Source: an uncultured delta proteobacterium (GTDB taxonomy: Bacteria; RBG-13-61-14; DRUE01). From it: a DNA stretch of 11,038 bases. Location of the stretch: assembly GCA_903930515.1 (NCBI GenBank), contig CAIYYW010000005.1, positions 1-11,038 of the forward strand, given 5' to 3'. The stretch's first letter is position 1. Every line of letters begins with the position of its first letter. Positions 15-11,038 of the stretch are shown in pieces. Both the position numbers and the translations under genes were made by a program. The notes under the pieces are model-generated. The model was not told the origin of the DNA and did not search any database. It saw nothing but the letters and a program-made list of their open reading frames with translations.

Positions 15-719
15 ATGGATGAATCAAAAACAATAACTGCTCAGGGACTTAATATCACCGATTCAAAGGGAAATTTGCGAGCAAGCATCGCAGTGGAAGA
101 AAATGGTGCTGTTGGATTTACTCTAGTGGATGATAAAGGTAAACCACGCGCACTCATGTTTTTATCAGAAAATGGTTCTCCAGGAATTCATCTTTTTGAT
201 AACTCGTATAAAGTGCGAGCTGGCCTTAGTTTGAGCTCTGATGGCGCTCCGCTAATTGGACTTGCGGATGATAAATGCCAAGTACGGGCTGCCATGGATG
301 TATCTATAGATGGCACTCCGGGAATTGGCTTCCTTGATAAAAATGGACAAGCTAGGGCTGGCATAAGCCTAGCGCCGGACGGCACTCCTACAATTGAGCT
401 AGTGGATGATAAGGGCAAACTTCGGGCCAACATGGCTTTATTACCTGATGGGTCTCCGTTAATTAGGTTTTCAGATTATAAAGGCGATTCCCGAATAAGC
501 ATCATTTTATCTCCAGATGGCTCTTCAGTAATTGGTCTTTCGGATGATAAAGGTAAAGCTCGAGTAGGCATGAGCTTAATGCCCGATGGCTCGCCAGGCG
601 TTAACCTTTTTGATAATAATGGCAAATTCAGGGTTGGCATGGGCTTGCAAAATGATGGATCGCCGAAAATTGCGCTTTTGGACGATAAAGGAAGACCATT
701 TTGGATGCGGCCTAAATAA
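15..719 (+). CDS. 23-residue tandem-repeat protein, function unknown
   Basis: The 234-residue protein is almost entirely a tandem array of 23-residue units with no insertions: the conserved Arg falls at residues 22, 45, 68, 91, 114, 137, 160, 183 and 206. The unit reads roughly DDKGKxRAxMxLxxDGSPxIxL, alternating short hydrophobic strands with DxxG and DG(S/T)P turns, which suggests a beta-solenoid or beta-roll-like fold (inference). The array closes with a degenerate unit ending DDKGRPFWMRPK. There is no signal peptide, membrane segment or enzyme motif. The start is firm: AGGAGG at 4-9 lies five bases before the ATG. I recall similar D-G-x-P / DxxGxxR repeat proteins in varied bacteria without a known role. 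The composition is AT-rich like the next two genes. Coding is certain; function is unknown. Confidence 0.85.
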   Translation: MDESKTITAQGLNITDSKGNLRASIAVEENGAVGFTLVDDKGKPRALMFLSENGSPGIHLFDNSYKVRAGLSLSSDGAPLIGLADDKCQVRAAMDVSIDGTPGIGFLDKNGQARAGISLAPDGTPTIELVDDKGKLRANMALLPDGSPLIRFSDYKGDSRISIILSPDGSSVIGLSDDKGKARVGMSLMPDGSPGVNLFDNNGKFRVGMGLQNDGSPKIALLDDKGRPFWMRPK

Positions 720-826
720 TAAAGAAAATCATTTGGCAGGTGCGCAAGATATAATGGCAGCAGCCTTGGCGAAGGCAGATGTCAAGGTTTGATCCCATGA
801 GTTCGTAAAAAGAAAAGGAGATCATA

Positions 827-1720
827 ATGCTTTTGAGCGAACCACAAATGAGAAGATTAGTTTTTATTAAATACCTGTATAATCAAGCTGTTCTTCAGTC
901 TCATCAACCTGAGCCAAGCTGTTGGACATCATTATTGCTTTTCCAAGATTGTGTAGAGCTTTTTCTTGGTCTCGCTTGCGAATTTAAGAATATTCAAACT
1001 AAAGAGAAGGCTTACTTCAACGAATATTTTGAACTTCTTAATGATAAAATTAAACCGAAACTCATTGCTGAAGTATCGTCTATGCAACGATTGAATAAGG
1101 GAAGGGTCGCCTTAAAGCATCACAGCATTTTTCCACATAAACAAGATATCGAGAATTATAGGGTAAGCACCTCAAACTTTTTTGAGGAAAATACCAAATT
1201 AATATTTAAAGGCGATTTTGATTCCATCTCGCTATCAGATCTGGTAATATGCGATGGAGCGAGAAAAAGCCTGAAAATTGCTGAACAATTCATCGGAAAA
1301 GGCGAAACCGGGAATGCTATAGACAATATTGCTATTTCATTTTATCAGTTGATAGAAGATTATGAAAATAGAAATACCATATTAGATAAATCTCCTTTTG
1401 ATTTTGGACGACTGGAAATGCCCTTTCCTTTTGCCTTGGCGTTGATGGCAGACAAGGATAAAGTTAGTAGATTTATTGGTAACATGGGAACAGCTGTAAT
1501 ACACATGCAGAAAGCATTAAAAATATTGAGCCTTGGATTAGATTATCGCTTCTATCATGATTTTAATTCATTTACTCCCTTTGTTTCAAAAACCGATTCT
1601 GGGTATGAGTTAAATAGGCATATAGTATACGATAATTTTCACAGTGAGATTTGCAGGCCATATTTTGATTTCGTTATACAAAGCGCTTTGAGACTTCAAG
1701 AAGGCGAAATTTGGAGATAG
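827..1720 (+). CDS. Helical protein with R-x4-H motif, possibly HEPN-like
   Basis: A soluble 297-residue protein, probably all-helical, with no signal or membrane segment. Residues 30-52 form a hydrophobic helix (LLLFQDCVELFLGLA), and residues 88-98 read QRLNKGRVALKH. The pair R93...H98 gives R-x4-H, the spacing of the HEPN ribonuclease motif, preceded by an acidic helix as in HEPN domains. Residues 135-180 and 205-240 are further helices. HEPN domains are usually RNases in toxin-antitoxin and abortive-infection systems; assigning this protein to HEPN is my inference from motif and helix pattern, not a recognised family hit. AAGGAG at 815-820 sits six bases before the ATG. The codons are AT-rich, unlike the core genes from 2.8 kb onward. 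It may work alone or with the 219-residue product downstream, but the 94-base gap argues against tight coupling. Confidence 0.8.
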   Translation: MLLSEPQMRRLVFIKYLYNQAVLQSHQPEPSCWTSLLLFQDCVELFLGLACEFKNIQTKEKAYFNEYFELLNDKIKPKLIAEVSSMQRLNKGRVALKHHSIFPHKQDIENYRVSTSNFFEENTKLIFKGDFDSISLSDLVICDGARKSLKIAEQFIGKGETGNAIDNIAISFYQLIEDYENRNTILDKSPFDFGRLEMPFPFALALMADKDKVSRFIGNMGTAVIHMQKALKILSLGLDYRFYHDFNSFTPFVSKTDSGYELNRHIVYDNFHSEICRPYFDFVIQSALRLQEGEIWR

Positions 1721-1766
1721 ACTTGACGAACCATTCCCAGCAAGCTCTCAGCAGACTCAAGCGGAT

Positions 1767-1790
1767 GGGGTCAGATTCGAATGGCACTTT
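1767..1790. repeat. GGGGTCAGA-type element end, remnant
   Basis: The sequence GGGGTCAGATTCGAATGGCA resembles GGGTCAGATCTTGAC at 10806-10820; both share GGGTCAGAT. From memory, GGGGTCAGATCTTGA-type strings are common at the edges of REP-associated Y1 transposase (RAYT) genes and their orphan repeats in environmental bacteria. No transposase is present here. It is called a remnant on resemblance only. Confidence 0.3.
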
Positions 1791-1814
1791 AATAATTCAA
1801 ATAGGAGGCCTAAA

Positions 1815-2474
1815 ATGGGATTTTGGAAATCTTTAAACTATAGTAATAATGAGAAAAACATGCTAAATCAATATTCCCAATTACTAATGACAATAACGGG
1901 ACTATCTTATTCCGAGGCGCGCAAAAAAGCAAAAGATATCTTGGATGAGGCGATTACGCAATCAAAAAATGATGGAACCTATAATTTGCCTGTGAATTTA
2001 GGCGATATCGTTTTAGAAATTTCTACAACGAGCGATCCTAACGTTCAGCTCCTTGTAAAAAACATTAGAAATGGTCTCCCAAATAAGAGAATGGATGGTG
2101 TTAGAGACGAAGATATTCGAGATTATTGGAATCTCAATATTATTGAACGTCATCTTATGTATCAACTCGATACGCTTTCCAGAACAGCTATGTATATTGA
2201 TGAAATCAATAAAAATAGAATAGACTCCAAAGAAATGGCCTCCGAAAAAGCTTTGCTCATTGTTTACAAATATCACCCGCTGTATGGCGATCCTGATGAT
2301 ACAAGCTTTACAAGTGGTGAAGATAGGCCATTGCCTATTGAGCTTAAAAACAGGATCAACATTTATATACAAAAGCGATTTCAAAGAGATCAAGATGACT
2401 ATAAAAAAGAGATTGAGCAATCTTCTTCTTTTAACGCATTGCTTAGAAAGGCGATTAGATTGGGTGAAATCTGA
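1815..2474 (+). CDS. Hypothetical protein, 219 residues
   Basis: I do not recognise this gene. The protein is soluble, charged and mostly helical. An N-terminal segment (residues 10-52) reads as two amphipathic helices; residues 55-70 look like a short beta stretch; residues 95-135 (core DEDIRDYWNLNIIERHL) are helical and richest in acidic and aromatic residues; residues 138-160 contain EKALLIVYKYHPLYGDP; and the C-terminal 45 residues are basic and helical. No catalytic signature, signal peptide or membrane helix is visible. AGGAGG at 1803-1808 lies six bases before the ATG, a strong start. AT-rich composition matches the two genes upstream, so the three may have arrived together. The 94-base gap upstream contains a GGGGTCAGA-type repeat end. 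Confidence 0.75.
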   Translation: MGFWKSLNYSNNEKNMLNQYSQLLMTITGLSYSEARKKAKDILDEAITQSKNDGTYNLPVNLGDIVLEISTTSDPNVQLLVKNIRNGLPNKRMDGVRDEDIRDYWNLNIIERHLMYQLDTLSRTAMYIDEINKNRIDSKEMASEKALLIVYKYHPLYGDPDDTSFTSGEDRPLPIELKNRINIYIQKRFQRDQDDYKKEIEQSSSFNALLRKAIRLGEI

Positions 2475-2511
2475 TTTTTAGCTGAGCAAATGGAGTCAAA
2501 GCCAGACATCT

Positions 2512-2577
2512 CCCTCCGTCCCGCGAATAGGAGGGGCTTGCGCCTTTGCTATCATCCGTCGCTAAAGCTATGGATGA
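2512..2577. repeat. Two small hairpin-forming elements
   Basis: CCCTCC at 2512-2517 pairs with GGAGGG at 2530-2535 over a 12-base loop. Immediately downstream, 2552-2577 forms an almost complete palindrome: TCATCCGT pairs with ATGGATGA (one G-T wobble), then one mismatch, then GCT-AA-AGC at the tip. The pattern resembles dispersed REP-like hairpins of the 'CCGTCGCTAAAGCTACGG' kind that I recall from intergenic regions of environmental genomes. They lie 38 bases past the stop of the 219-residue gene, so could act in 3'-end processing or weak termination, but no T-run follows. Confidence 0.5.
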
Positions 2578-2591
2578 CAAGAAACTTCGGC

Positions 2592-2627
2592 GGACAAGTC
2601 GGAGGACAGGACGGGGGACAAGTGAGA
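2592..2627. repeat. Three 12-base tandem units
   Basis: GGACAAGTCGGA, GGACAGGACGGG and GGACAAGTGAGA follow one another with exact 12-base spacing. They lie in the non-coding stretch between the AT-rich block and the truncated START-gene copy. No function is apparent. Confidence 0.5.
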
Positions 2628-2660
2628 CATTATCGCAGCAATTTTCAGAATAGATTACAA

Positions 2661-7602: not shown

Positions 7603-7687
7603 CTCTTACCCCCAATGATCCCACCTATTTTCGCCGCCTTCCCCAGCTTGTCAATCCCCATAAAAAAGCCGCCAGTATTCAAATTGC

Positions 7688-7836
7688 TTTTCACCACAAC
7701 GACACCACGAATCAAAAGATTTTTTCCGTTGTGCCCGTTGTGTCGTCGTGTTTAAGAGAAATTCTAATTGAAGATTTTAAACACCACGGCACCACGCCGG
7801 ATGAGGAAGAAATTGTTCTCACCGCAAAGACGCCGA
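7688..7836. repeat. Cluster of dispersed repeats in both orientations
   Basis: This fills most of the 306-base gap between the GH39-like gene and the second MNT gene. CACCACAACGACACCACGAA (7692-7711) and the oppositely oriented CCGTTGTGCCCGTTGTGTCG (7726-7745) are one repeat type facing itself; AAACACCACGGCACCACG follows at 7779-7796; and TCACCGCAAAGACGCC (7819-7834) is the reverse complement of the element at 4497-4516. No gene or clear promoter is seen; a TTGACT (7867-7872) and a TATAAG (7887-7892) are only 14 bases apart, too close for a normal promoter. Confidence 0.6.
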
Positions 7837-7908
7837 ACTGCCTTTCCAACGCCCAGAGCCGGGAATTTGACTTTTGAGTCCGTCCTTATAAGCTGAAAGA
7901 TAAGAGCG

Positions 7909-8202
7909 ATGAAGACCTTAAAAGAAATTCAGGACCTGCTTAAAGCGCATCAGGCGGAGCTAAGGGACAAGTATCGGGTCCGGGAGCTCGGCATCTTCGG
8001 CTCCGTGGTCCGGGGAGAGCAGAAACGCGGGAGCGATGTGGACATCCTGGTGGATTTTGACCAGGCGCCGGACCTGCTCAAATTCTGCGAGGTTGAAATC
8101 TACCTGGAAAAAATCCTGCGCCAGAAGGTGGACCTGGTCCGAAAACCCGCGCTCCGGCCCGAACTCAGAGACCAGATCCTGAGCGAGGCCCGTTATATAT
8201 GA
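7909..8202 (+). CDS. mntA: MNT-domain nucleotidyltransferase antitoxin (second copy)
   Basis: A 97-residue minimal nucleotidyltransferase. LGIFGSVVRGEQKRGSDVDI (27-46) contains the G31-S32 nucleotide-binding pair and metal-binding D43 and D45; D75 in QKVDLVRK is the third Asp. All catalytic positions of an MntA-type AMP transferase are therefore present. It is clearly diverged from the first MNT protein (107 residues), so it is not a recent duplicate. Its stop overlaps the start of a HepT gene by four bases (ATGA at 8199-8202), but that toxin is cut short, leaving the antitoxin an orphan. The Shine-Dalgarno is weak (TAAGAG just before the ATG). It may now supply the transcript for the large nuclease gene that follows. 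It could still counter HepT proteins encoded elsewhere. Confidence 0.85.
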   Translation: MKTLKEIQDLLKAHQAELRDKYRVRELGIFGSVVRGEQKRGSDVDILVDFDQAPDLLKFCEVEIYLEKILRQKVDLVRKPALRPELRDQILSEARYI

Positions 8203-8327
8203 AACGAGACGCGAGCCTTTATCGCAAGGATATTTTGGATTGCATCGCCAAAACCCGGGAATTTATCGGCGACCTAAGCTATGATGATTTTATCAAAGAT
8301 GACAAGACCTCCAGCGATGCTTTTTAG
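8199..8327 (+). pseudogene. Truncated HepT (DUF86 HEPN) toxin remnant
   Basis: Forty-two codons from an ATG overlapping the MNT stop encode MKRDASLYRKDILDCIAKTR and on to FIGDLSYDDFIKDDKTSSDAF. This matches the standard N terminus of DUF86 HEPN toxins (RDxxLYxxDILxxI...F..YDDF..D.KT..A). Intact homologues continue with a helix of the LEIIGEA kind and the R-x4-H-x-Y site; here everything after about codon 41 is missing, and a TAG stop is reached where the AT-rich nuclease gene begins. With no catalytic Arg or His the product cannot be a ribonuclease. The remainder of the toxin is not found in the other frames just downstream nor after the nuclease gene, so this is a deletion or replacement rather than a simple insertion. 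Confidence 0.75.
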
Positions 8328-8339
8328 GAGAATTTGGAG

Positions 8340-10712
8340 ATGGTTTCAAGGGATATAATCGAGCTAGCTATTAGCTCTCCCATTGATTGGGAGAAATTCG
8401 AATCGTTGGTAGTAGATGTTCTTCAAAATGACGACTTACCTAGGCTACGCAAGCTTGGTGGCAGGGCGGACAGAGGAATAGATGCTGAAGATGAGGCCTT
8501 CTATCAAGACGAATCACGAATTGAAGCAGTAATTCAGGTGACATCTCAGAAAGACCAATTAGAAAAGTTAGTTTCAACAATCTCGCGATTGATCGAAGAA
8601 GAAATTAAATTTAAAAAGCTAATCATGGTTTTTCGCCAACCAGTCGAGAGTACCATGCGCACAAGGTTACAAGCAAAGGCGCTTGAACTAGGGGTGTTAG
8701 CAGATATCCGAGATCAATCATACTTAATCGCGCAATTATCAAAACCCGGAAGCCACATTTTTGCTAGATACTTTGATGATATAGGCGCGCAGATAAAATC
8801 GTTGTTAGCGACACCTGATCCACTCCAAATTGCTACTGATCCTCTTAGGCACGCCGTTCTTGCTTCACTAGGCGCATATGTTATCAGCCCTCACGCTAGG
8901 ATGGCGCGGCGCACTTTATTCGAGAAAACTATTTTGGCTGTTATCGTCTCGATTGGCGAAGCAGAAATAGCATCGGTGATTGACCGCCTTCGTATCCTTT
9001 TGCCAGAAGAACAAATTGACGAAGAACGGGTACGCCCAGTACTGGATTCTTTAGAAAAAGCCAGCGATATTAAAATAGTAGGCTCAAAAATAATACCAAA
9101 TGAGCAAACTCTTATTGCCGTTGGAAAGACGATTGCTTTATCAAAGGCTGCTTATGAGGGAATTCGTGTCTTTGTGCTTCAATCTTGTGCAAAAAATTTT
9201 AGGTTGGATGACGCTTCTCGTGGATATCTGGAGCGAAATCTTAGACGCGCATTGCTCATGCTTCTTCGCAGCTACGGCCCAATCGACACCGATCAATCAA
9301 ATATGTGCCTCCCCCAAGAATATTCCGGGGATTTGCAAAGTTGTTTTTCAAAGGACTTACCTGAGCAACTGGCCCGCTCGGCTTTCATCGCTTTCGCAGC
9401 ATATTTGGAAGACAAGAAAAATGTACCATATCTTGCTATATTTGCAAGAACATATGCCGCACTTGCTATTCGAAATTTGGACCCGATGGGCAGGAGATGG
9501 CAAAAAACTGCGCTTTCCAGATCAATTCTTGCGCTTGATACAGACGCAGTATTGCAAATTATCGTCAATGAGTCGCCAGAACATTCAATTATCTTGCGCG
9601 CAATTCAGGCTCTGCAAAAAGCTGGTTTCAAAATCGTAATCTCTGATGAAGTTTTTCATGAAGCTATTGATCATATTAGCAGAGCAGATCGCGTTTACGC
9701 CATGTTCAAAAACAATTTCTTGCGAATGTCACCCGCCATGGCTGATGCACAGATAGAGAACCTAGTAGCGAGGGGTTACTACTATGCATTAAAAGTAAAT
9801 GAAGATATAACCTGGAGAAATTATTGGCGTAATTATTATGATGGCAAAGATCCAGAGCGCTATGTTCGCTCGATGCTTGGGACAGTTTTAAATGTGGATA
9901 TTCAAGCTCTGGAATCCATTCCTGATGAATGGCTACCAGCTCTCCACGAAATATCCGAGTATTTATTAACTAAAAAGGAGCCCCGTCGGCTGAAGGCAAA
10001 ATTCCGTGATGAAGATCAAAGGCACAGGCGGGTTTATGCAGATGTACGAATGGCTATGCATTTAGCTAATTACGAAACGAGTTCCAGCATATCAAATGCC
10101 AAGGGATATCTCGTTAGTGATGATAGAGCGTTTTTAAAAGCACAAACTCATAGGGCTTGGTCACCTCGCCAGATGATCCTGATAATGACTCATGCTATAC
10201 CCGAACTGGCAGCTTTTCTCTGCGGAGAAATATTTGAGGATAATCAAATTGTCCAACTATTATTTGATTCCGCCATAGCATCAGCCGCAACTCTTATGGA
10301 AAATGAAATAATGACCCTTACATCTTTGGGTGTTAACTTAAAAACTATAAGTGTTGCAAGGCTGGAGTGGGATCTTAAAAATGTACTCCACGATGCCATT
10401 CATAGTTATCAGGCCGCAGAAGGTGGAGATATTAAAGATCGATTTAACAGCGCCATGAATGTTTTGGAAACTGCAAAGGAAAAGGGCCTTCAAATCGATG
10501 CAACAATAGCGCAATTTATTGAATCGTTCAAAGCAGAGACAAAAGGCTCGGTAGAGTTAATTGATGAGAATAAAAAGCTTAAGGATATCATTCATAGGCT
10601 TGCATTATCCATTGGAAAATTGAAAAAGCCTAGAAGAAGAGTAAGCCAAGTGCTAAAAGAGATAGGTTTAACTTACAGTGATTTGATTGCAGATGAAGAA
10701 GACGAAGAATAA
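8340..10712 (+). CDS. Two-nuclease protein: Mrr-like PD-(D/E)XK domain plus PIN domain
   Basis: A 790-residue protein, numbered from the ATG at 8340 (AGGAG at 8326-8330, nine bases before; a TTG at 8334 is possible). Residues 13-133 look like a restriction-endonuclease fold: WEKFESLVVDVL, GGRADRGID (D44, D48), then EAVIQVTSQK (E62, Q66, K71). In Mrr relatives the last block is QxK; here it is QVT, so the domain may be altered or use K71. Residues about 190-255 resemble a winged helix. Residues 396-600 read as a PIN RNase domain: LDTDAVL (D400, D402), VISDEVFHEA (E441), YADVRMAMHLA (D568) and GYLVSDDRAF (D594/D595), with a large helical insert. The C terminus is helical, with a short coiled coil near 740-760 and an acidic tail. 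I know no named family with this order. Defence or toxin function is inferred from domains, AT-rich composition and position in a broken toxin operon. Confidence 0.8.
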   Translation: MVSRDIIELAISSPIDWEKFESLVVDVLQNDDLPRLRKLGGRADRGIDAEDEAFYQDESRIEAVIQVTSQKDQLEKLVSTISRLIEEEIKFKKLIMVFRQPVESTMRTRLQAKALELGVLADIRDQSYLIAQLSKPGSHIFARYFDDIGAQIKSLLATPDPLQIATDPLRHAVLASLGAYVISPHARMARRTLFEKTILAVIVSIGEAEIASVIDRLRILLPEEQIDEERVRPVLDSLEKASDIKIVGSKIIPNEQTLIAVGKTIALSKAAYEGIRVFVLQSCAKNFRLDDASRGYLERNLRRALLMLLRSYGPIDTDQSNMCLPQEYSGDLQSCFSKDLPEQLARSAFIAFAAYLEDKKNVPYLAIFARTYAALAIRNLDPMGRRWQKTALSRSILALDTDAVLQIIVNESPEHSIILRAIQALQKAGFKIVISDEVFHEAIDHISRADRVYAMFKNNFLRMSPAMADAQIENLVARGYYYALKVNEDITWRNYWRNYYDGKDPERYVRSMLGTVLNVDIQALESIPDEWLPALHEISEYLLTKKEPRRLKAKFRDEDQRHRRVYADVRMAMHLANYETSSSISNAKGYLVSDDRAFLKAQTHRAWSPRQMILIMTHAIPELAAFLCGEIFEDNQIVQLLFDSAIASAATLMENEIMTLTSLGVNLKTISVARLEWDLKNVLHDAIHSYQAAEGGDIKDRFNSAMNVLETAKEKGLQIDATIAQFIESFKAETKGSVELIDENKKLKDIIHRLALSIGKLKKPRRRVSQVLKEIGLTYSDLIADEEDEE

Positions 10713-10805
10713 GGAAAGGATTTTTGGAAGCCCGGAGGGGTCATCTATAAAAGCCCAGGTCAAGAGAAATTCTTCCCCTAACAGCCAAATTTCTTTAAGG
10801 CCGGC

Positions 10806-10826
10806 GGGTCAGATCTTGACTTTTTC
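10806..10826. repeat. GGGTCAGATCTTGAC element end
   Basis: GGGTCAGATCTTGACTTTTT closely matches a string I associate with the edges of RAYT/Y1-transposase repeats. It resembles 1767-1780. The CTTGAC end can pair with GTCAAG near 10759. No transposase gene is present in the window. Confidence 0.35.
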
Positions 10827-10850
10827 CTTTTCCGAATAAAAAAAGTGAAT

Positions 10851-10896
10851 TCTCTGCGTAGGACACTTGTGTCCCTCTGTGTCTCTGTGGTGAAAA
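10851..10896. repeat. Dispersed GTGTCTCTGTGGTGAA repeat with internal palindrome
   Basis: CTCTGTGTCTCTGTGGTGAA (10875-10894) is the same element as 4564-4583. Before it, GGACACTTGTGTCC (10861-10874) is a perfect 14-base inverted repeat (GGACAC-TT-GTGTCC), not seen in the other copies in this window. Confidence 0.6.
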
Positions 10897-11038
10897 TTAG
10901 ATTGGGGTTTGCGTGGGTTAAATTCATCGCGAGCCAAGGGGAAGATTTGCGGATGGAAGGGGGAACGGGCAGGATTTCAGTTTCCGGTTCAGTTAAAACC
11001 TGGACCTCAGAAACCCGGCTAGGGCGGTATAAGCCGAG

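Follow-up and report, generated by a model that had tools for sequence, protein, structure and literature searches.

What does a single protein do when it joins a restriction-endonuclease-like (REase-like) domain to a PIN ribonuclease domain and is encoded directly behind a toxin-antitoxin operon? The question is raised by a 790-residue protein encoded near the end of the window, that is, the whole stretch of 11,038 nucleotides analysed here from a contig of an uncultured delta proteobacterium. An earlier note on the same DNA had taken the protein to fit a standalone anti-phage effector, lying in a broken toxin-antitoxin operon, in which one part could sense or cut DNA and the PIN part would cut RNA.

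The gene and its surroundings

The open reading frame (8340-10712, forward strand) is uninterrupted over 790 codons from an ATG at 8340 to a stop at 10712, with a TTG at 8334 as a possible alternative start. It is preceded by a likely ribosome-binding site that overlaps the stop codon of the gene upstream, a remnant of the toxin HepT. The features are as follows.

7909-8202, forward strand: intact MNT-type nucleotidyltransferase gene (NTP_transf_2, E 2.1e-15; PADLOC candidate PDC-S09, E 2e-30)
8199-8327, forward strand: HepT (HEPN) toxin remnant of 42 aa, judged against the intact HepT of L007
8326-8331, forward strand: likely ribosome-binding site AGGAGA, read from the sequence, about 9 bases 5' of the ATG
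8340-10712, forward strand: full gene, 790 aa (REase-like domain, winged helix, helical region, PIN domain, helical C terminus)
8340-8744, forward strand: residues 1-135, Mrr-clade PD-(D/E)XK-like domain (E21, D48, K71, K76), from Mrr_cat and hhalign
8886-9137, forward strand: residues 183-266, predicted winged helix, from VIA-align to the winged helices of RosR, OhrR, ORC2 and Csa3
9138-9512, forward strand: residues 267-391, helical region, from the model; 50% identity to the relative in L002
9513-10235, forward strand: residues 392-632, predicted PIN domain (D400, E441, D568, D595), from VIA-align and the PIN_3 and PIN profiles
9711-9995, forward strand: residues 458-552, helical insert within the PIN domain, from alignment spacing and model helices; 39% identity
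10236-10709, forward strand: residues 633-790, C-terminal helices with a conserved basic stretch, KKxRRRV, at the end, from the alignment and the model

That this is a real protein, as the earlier note had proposed, is borne out by the open frame, the well-placed AGGAGA and a relative in an unrelated genome (L002:10001-12382, MAG WY4.bin59), with which it shares 47% identity from end to end. A full-length match of this kind excludes an assembly artefact as the source of the domain order, which is kept at that distance. The gene is AT-rich, as had been noted, with a GC content of 41.7% and a GC3 of 36%, against 53-58% and 63-78% in core-like neighbours.

The operon just upstream is indeed broken: the intact MNT gene, which is of the type that forms the antitoxin half of an MNT/HEPN pair, is followed by a HepT remnant that stops before the catalytic end, while the intact HepT of the same-genus L007 continues for more than 90 aa. 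The defence-type context in the window consists of toxin-antitoxin modules only, and a second MNT/HEPN pair, apparently intact, lies on the same 11-kb contig (2841-3510, reverse strand). The MNT gene at 7909-8202 matched PDC-S09 and not the PADLOC Cyclase models, and no CD-NTase gene was found in the window or among the scanned neighbours of the L002 copy; nor was an Argonaute or APAZ partner matched in the protein or in the scanned neighbours. No small antitoxin gene of VapBC type adjoins either the window copy or the L002 copy.

From its position directly 3' of the MNT gene and the truncated HepT, the gene could be read as a selfish element, an orphan toxin or addiction gene that landed in a toxin-antitoxin locus and has no anti-phage role. 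The PIN fold, which is that of VapC toxins, and the sporadic distribution described below would suit this reading, but a small antitoxin gene is absent beside both copies and 790 aa far exceeds the classic size of a toxin, which leaves it unlikely.

At the gene itself, a search for terminal repeats of the kind that would mark a mobile element was negative. The contig ends in about 300 bases downstream of the gene that are repeated elsewhere in the genome; this intergenic stretch (10713-11038) and another at 7674-7811 occur in many copies in the same genome and probably break the assembly. Two very AT-rich open reading frames at 827-2474 (GC 35%), the first of which matches phrog_37995 (E 6.8e-58), a phage family of unknown function, suggest by their composition and this match a second acquired stretch. 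A 234-aa protein at 15-719 is made of repeat units of about 23-25 residues (DDKGKxRaxmxlxxDGsPxIxL) and has no family match.

Domains of the protein

By sequence comparison, the N-terminal domain is a member of the Mrr-clade restriction-endonuclease-like family. When residues 1-160 were searched alone with Pfam Mrr_cat, whose curated cut-off is 21 bits, the window protein scored 20.8 bits, just under the cut-off, and the L002 relative 23.0 bits, above it; the cut-off is also passed by the family members L035 (22.5 bits) and L029 (27 bits). A profile built from the two full-length sequences and run against genomes matched a protein from a bacterium with a large genome (L022/L024, E 4.8e-11), in the N-terminal domain only, and from there further relatives of this domain were reached in haloarchaeal and alphaproteobacterial plasmid proteins and in L029. 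With hhalign, the window/L002 pair matched an independent alignment of four relatives (Prob 91, E 1.1e-6); in a control, the N-terminal-family alignment gave Prob 0.2 against PIN_3 proteins. The motifs GGRADRGID, containing D48, and EAVIQVTSQK, on which the earlier note had based its Mrr/PD-(D/E)XK pattern, are both present, but E62 is Asp in the relative and the pattern of a catalytic D followed by (E/Q)-x-K is kept at D48 and Q66 with T68 in place of the lysine. This lysine position is Thr or Ser across the clade, and only E21, D48 and K76 are invariant in the ten-member alignment. The family is thus clear, but with another residue in place of the canonical Q-x-K lysine it is uncertain that this domain cuts DNA; K71 and the invariant K76 may substitute for the lysine. 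The AlphaFold2 model has a pLDDT of about 30 in this N-terminal part.

AlphaFold2 modelling from two sequences gave low overall confidence (pLDDT 47 and 43), and Foldseek E-values alone were not significant, so the calls of the winged helix and the PIN domain rest on a second alignment pass. In that pass (VIA-align), residues 183-266, where the model has low-to-middling confidence, aligned with winged-helix structures at Z about 8-10, in agreement with the winged-helix-like segment proposed before. To residues 267-391 and 633-790 no fold could be assigned from the predicted model.

Residues 392-632 aligned at Z 11.2 with 1y82 (145/146 residues) and with VapC4, at Z 11.0 with VapBC2, at Z 11.0 over 149 residues with the HARP RNase P 7og5, and at Z about 11 with Rrp44; a separate model of the PIN region alone listed almost only PIN chains, with a best Z of 7.1. 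The four acidic positions claimed within residues 396-600 are identical in the window protein and the relative (D400, E441, D568, D595), and the PIN fold is predicted over residues 392-632. Between E441 and D568, about 95 additional residues form a helical insert that widens the spacing. With the insert included, Pfam PIN_3 matched at E 0.094; with it left out, PIN_3 matched at E 6.7e-4 and PIN at E 1.2e-3, both short of their curated cut-offs, the insert-free PIN_3 score being 20.9 bits against a cut-off of 27. Once spliced in this way, the window domain (14.7 bits) narrowly beats all 1000 shuffles (maximum 14.3), and for the L002 domain (7.5 bits) 9 of 1000 shuffles score at least as high. 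When the unspliced region was compared profile to profile with PIN_3 members, the match was weak but in the right register (P 0.019); with whole-length alignment the match landed elsewhere. Because of the fold match and the four acids, and despite the Pfam scores below the cut-off, residues 392-632 are read as a divergent PIN domain. Profile and structure comparisons thus back the reading of the protein as a REase-like domain, a winged helix, a helical region and a PIN domain.

With a non-canonical REase motif, one or both nuclease folds might be catalytically dead and the protein a DNA- or RNA-binding regulator; this is improbable, as two proteins with an overall identity of 47% have both retained the four PIN acids together with D48, K71 and K76.

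Distribution and defence loci

Both full-length copies are sporadic. None of the 131 other genomes examined from the phylum of the L002 relative has the gene, and of the three genomes examined from the phylum of the window's host, the other two (one of the same genus, one of the same order) are without it. Neither full-length protein had a relative in the searches of plasmids, phages and IMG/VR, and a PDB sequence search gave no match to the protein. Weak genome hits in L004/L005 (ThiE/ThiL region) and L023 (a chemoreceptor-like coiled coil) were rejected as chance.

The L002 gene is solitary, with no defence genes among its scanned neighbours. It adjoins an rRNA operon, whose 5S rRNA gene precedes it by 348 nt; a terminator-like hairpin lies between the two. 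Two inverted 43-nt stretches, 81% complementary, flank the L002 gene (9802-9844 and 12584-12626), the right-hand one being a match to the Acido-Lenti-1 RNA, and a group I intron lies within the 23S rRNA gene (7664-8167). A role in rRNA processing, prompted by this position, was set aside in view of the hairpin and the sporadic presence. More broadly, the protein might be a host maintenance enzyme, either for HARP-like RNA processing or as a DNA-repair nuclease, since its PIN model fits HARP RNase P and VapC about equally well and the relative lies close to the 5S gene. Such a role appears hardly probable: the gene is absent from the same-genus and same-order genomes and from the 131 of the relative's phylum, its GC content is atypical, the hairpin follows the L002 5S gene, and no rRNA lies near the window copy. 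Judged from its composition and distribution, the solitary gene was apparently acquired horizontally.

Relatives of the N-terminal domain are found in defence loci. In L029, a CD-NTase cyclase (E 1e-61) adjoins one of them. At this locus (226-2637, reverse strand), the gene beside the cyclase combines an Mrr-type domain with an unassigned C-terminal part and is possibly a CBASS variant. A Sphingobium relative adjoins HamA and a helicase (Hachiman), and a Halomarina relative adjoins BREX-5 genes and a KwaB-like gene. Among PADLOC models, the closest to the domain describe the REase of an Argonaute-associated protein (E 1.1e-3 and 9e-5) and LmuA. For the proteins in these defence contexts, the resemblance to the window protein ends with the N-terminal domain. 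On an Agrobacterium plasmid (L032, 3858-10129), a SMEK-NACHT protein is divergent from a 1067-aa protein with an Mrr-type N-terminal domain, which is resembled by unannotated proteins of about 1100 aa in L031, L033 and L034.

Because the N-terminal-domain relatives sit in defence loci and the gene itself is sporadic and apparently acquired, a defence role is plausible on these genomic grounds. The earlier proposal of a standalone anti-phage effector was therefore upheld in part: homologues near defence genes do exist for the N-terminal domain, but the full-length L002 copy is without defence neighbours and adjoins the rRNA operon instead.

Proposed function and known systems

In VapC toxins the PIN domain acts as a metal-dependent RNase; domains of Mrr type serve as DNA nucleases or effector modules, and winged helices are commonly DNA-binding. 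From the domain content, order, conservation and sporadic distribution, which are observed, we infer a function and a division of labour: at a probability of roughly 0.38, the protein is a solitary, horizontally acquired effector of defence or toxin type, with a DNA-engaging REase-like domain and winged helix and an RNA-cutting PIN domain. The REase-like domain and the winged helix would bind DNA that is invading, damaged or unusual in some other way; the PIN domain, freed by this binding, would cleave tRNA, rRNA or mRNA and so halt growth in the manner of VapC toxins. Until DNA is engaged, the helical stretches that separate and follow the domains would keep the PIN domain inactive; as no antitoxin is evident, control would have to be internal. 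The REase-like domain may nick DNA as well. A narrower version, which is tentative, is a one-gene immune protein in which the REase-like/winged-helix half directly licenses the PIN half, so that foreign or broken DNA would lead to RNA cleavage within one polypeptide. It is equally tentative that this would need no helicase, NTPase, second messenger or antitoxin.

The PIN domain is favoured as the executor because its acidic set is complete and the REase motif is unusual. The roles could also be reversed, because the REase-like domain is the best conserved region between the two copies, and its identity (63%, against 45% for the PIN domain) could mark it as the active half. It would then degrade DNA, and the PIN domain would sense or process RNA or switch the protein on and off. 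The invariant E21, D48 and K76 and the domain's relatives, which adjoin a cyclase or resemble Argonaute-associated effectors, speak for this reversal, but this clade has Thr or Ser in place of the canonical Mrr lysine, and a complete PIN acidic set is superfluous in a pure sensor; on balance it seems rather doubtful.

The protein can be compared with several known systems. The Argonaute-associated REase (PADLOC Aga_REase-TIR-PNTD1-PNTD2) and the cyclase-linked protein of L029 have an N-terminal REase-like domain of the same clade. In contrast to them, the window protein has no TIR, APAZ or PNTD part, has a winged helix and a PIN domain instead, and has no Argonaute or cyclase gene nearby. It shares with VapC/PIN toxins a PIN fold with four conserved acids; here, however, the domain is embedded in 790 aa, has the helical insert and is not accompanied by a VapB-like antitoxin. 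With HARP, the minimal protein-only RNase P, the modelled PIN domain aligns at the Z of 11.0 given above, and both PINs exceed the VapC core, but the likeness is one of modelled fold, and the window protein has large extra domains and is sporadic rather than housekeeping.

In vWA-MoxR and STAND-type conflict systems, Mrr-like REase and PIN domains are described as exchangeable effectors, several effector types being at times present in one polypeptide (PMC7159879, accessible portion); no NTPase, vWA or MoxR part was found in the window protein, and no Mrr-winged-helix-PIN chain in that portion of the article. Accessible parts of other work report the fusion of PIN to a defence-type regulatory domain in CARF-PIN proteins (PMC4012209), genes for PIN and REase proteins in the surroundings of Dnd loci (PMC10853773) and nucleases of Mrr type that accompany Argonautes (PMC6299218), and the present chain was not found in those parts either. 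The window protein matches no CARF domain, and a weak match of a PADLOC CARF model to the N terminus of the L002 relative (E 0.002) falls on the REase-like region. The absence of a named system with this order, noted from the outset, held up in the PADLOC, Pfam, NCBIfam and PHROG libraries and in a literature search that ran largely outside subscription journals, where the same architecture was not found. Each part is known in kind, and the architecture can fairly be labeled new among solitary nuclease effectors.

In most known systems, the step from DNA detection to RNA damage takes several proteins, a messenger or an NTPase. If the favoured reading is true, one 790-aa chain carrying both folds would be a compact and testable example of this step, and the Mrr-type effector module of cyclase and Argonaute loci would also be joined to toxin-type RNases. 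Were the protein a plain orphan toxin, its architecture would still be new and rare.
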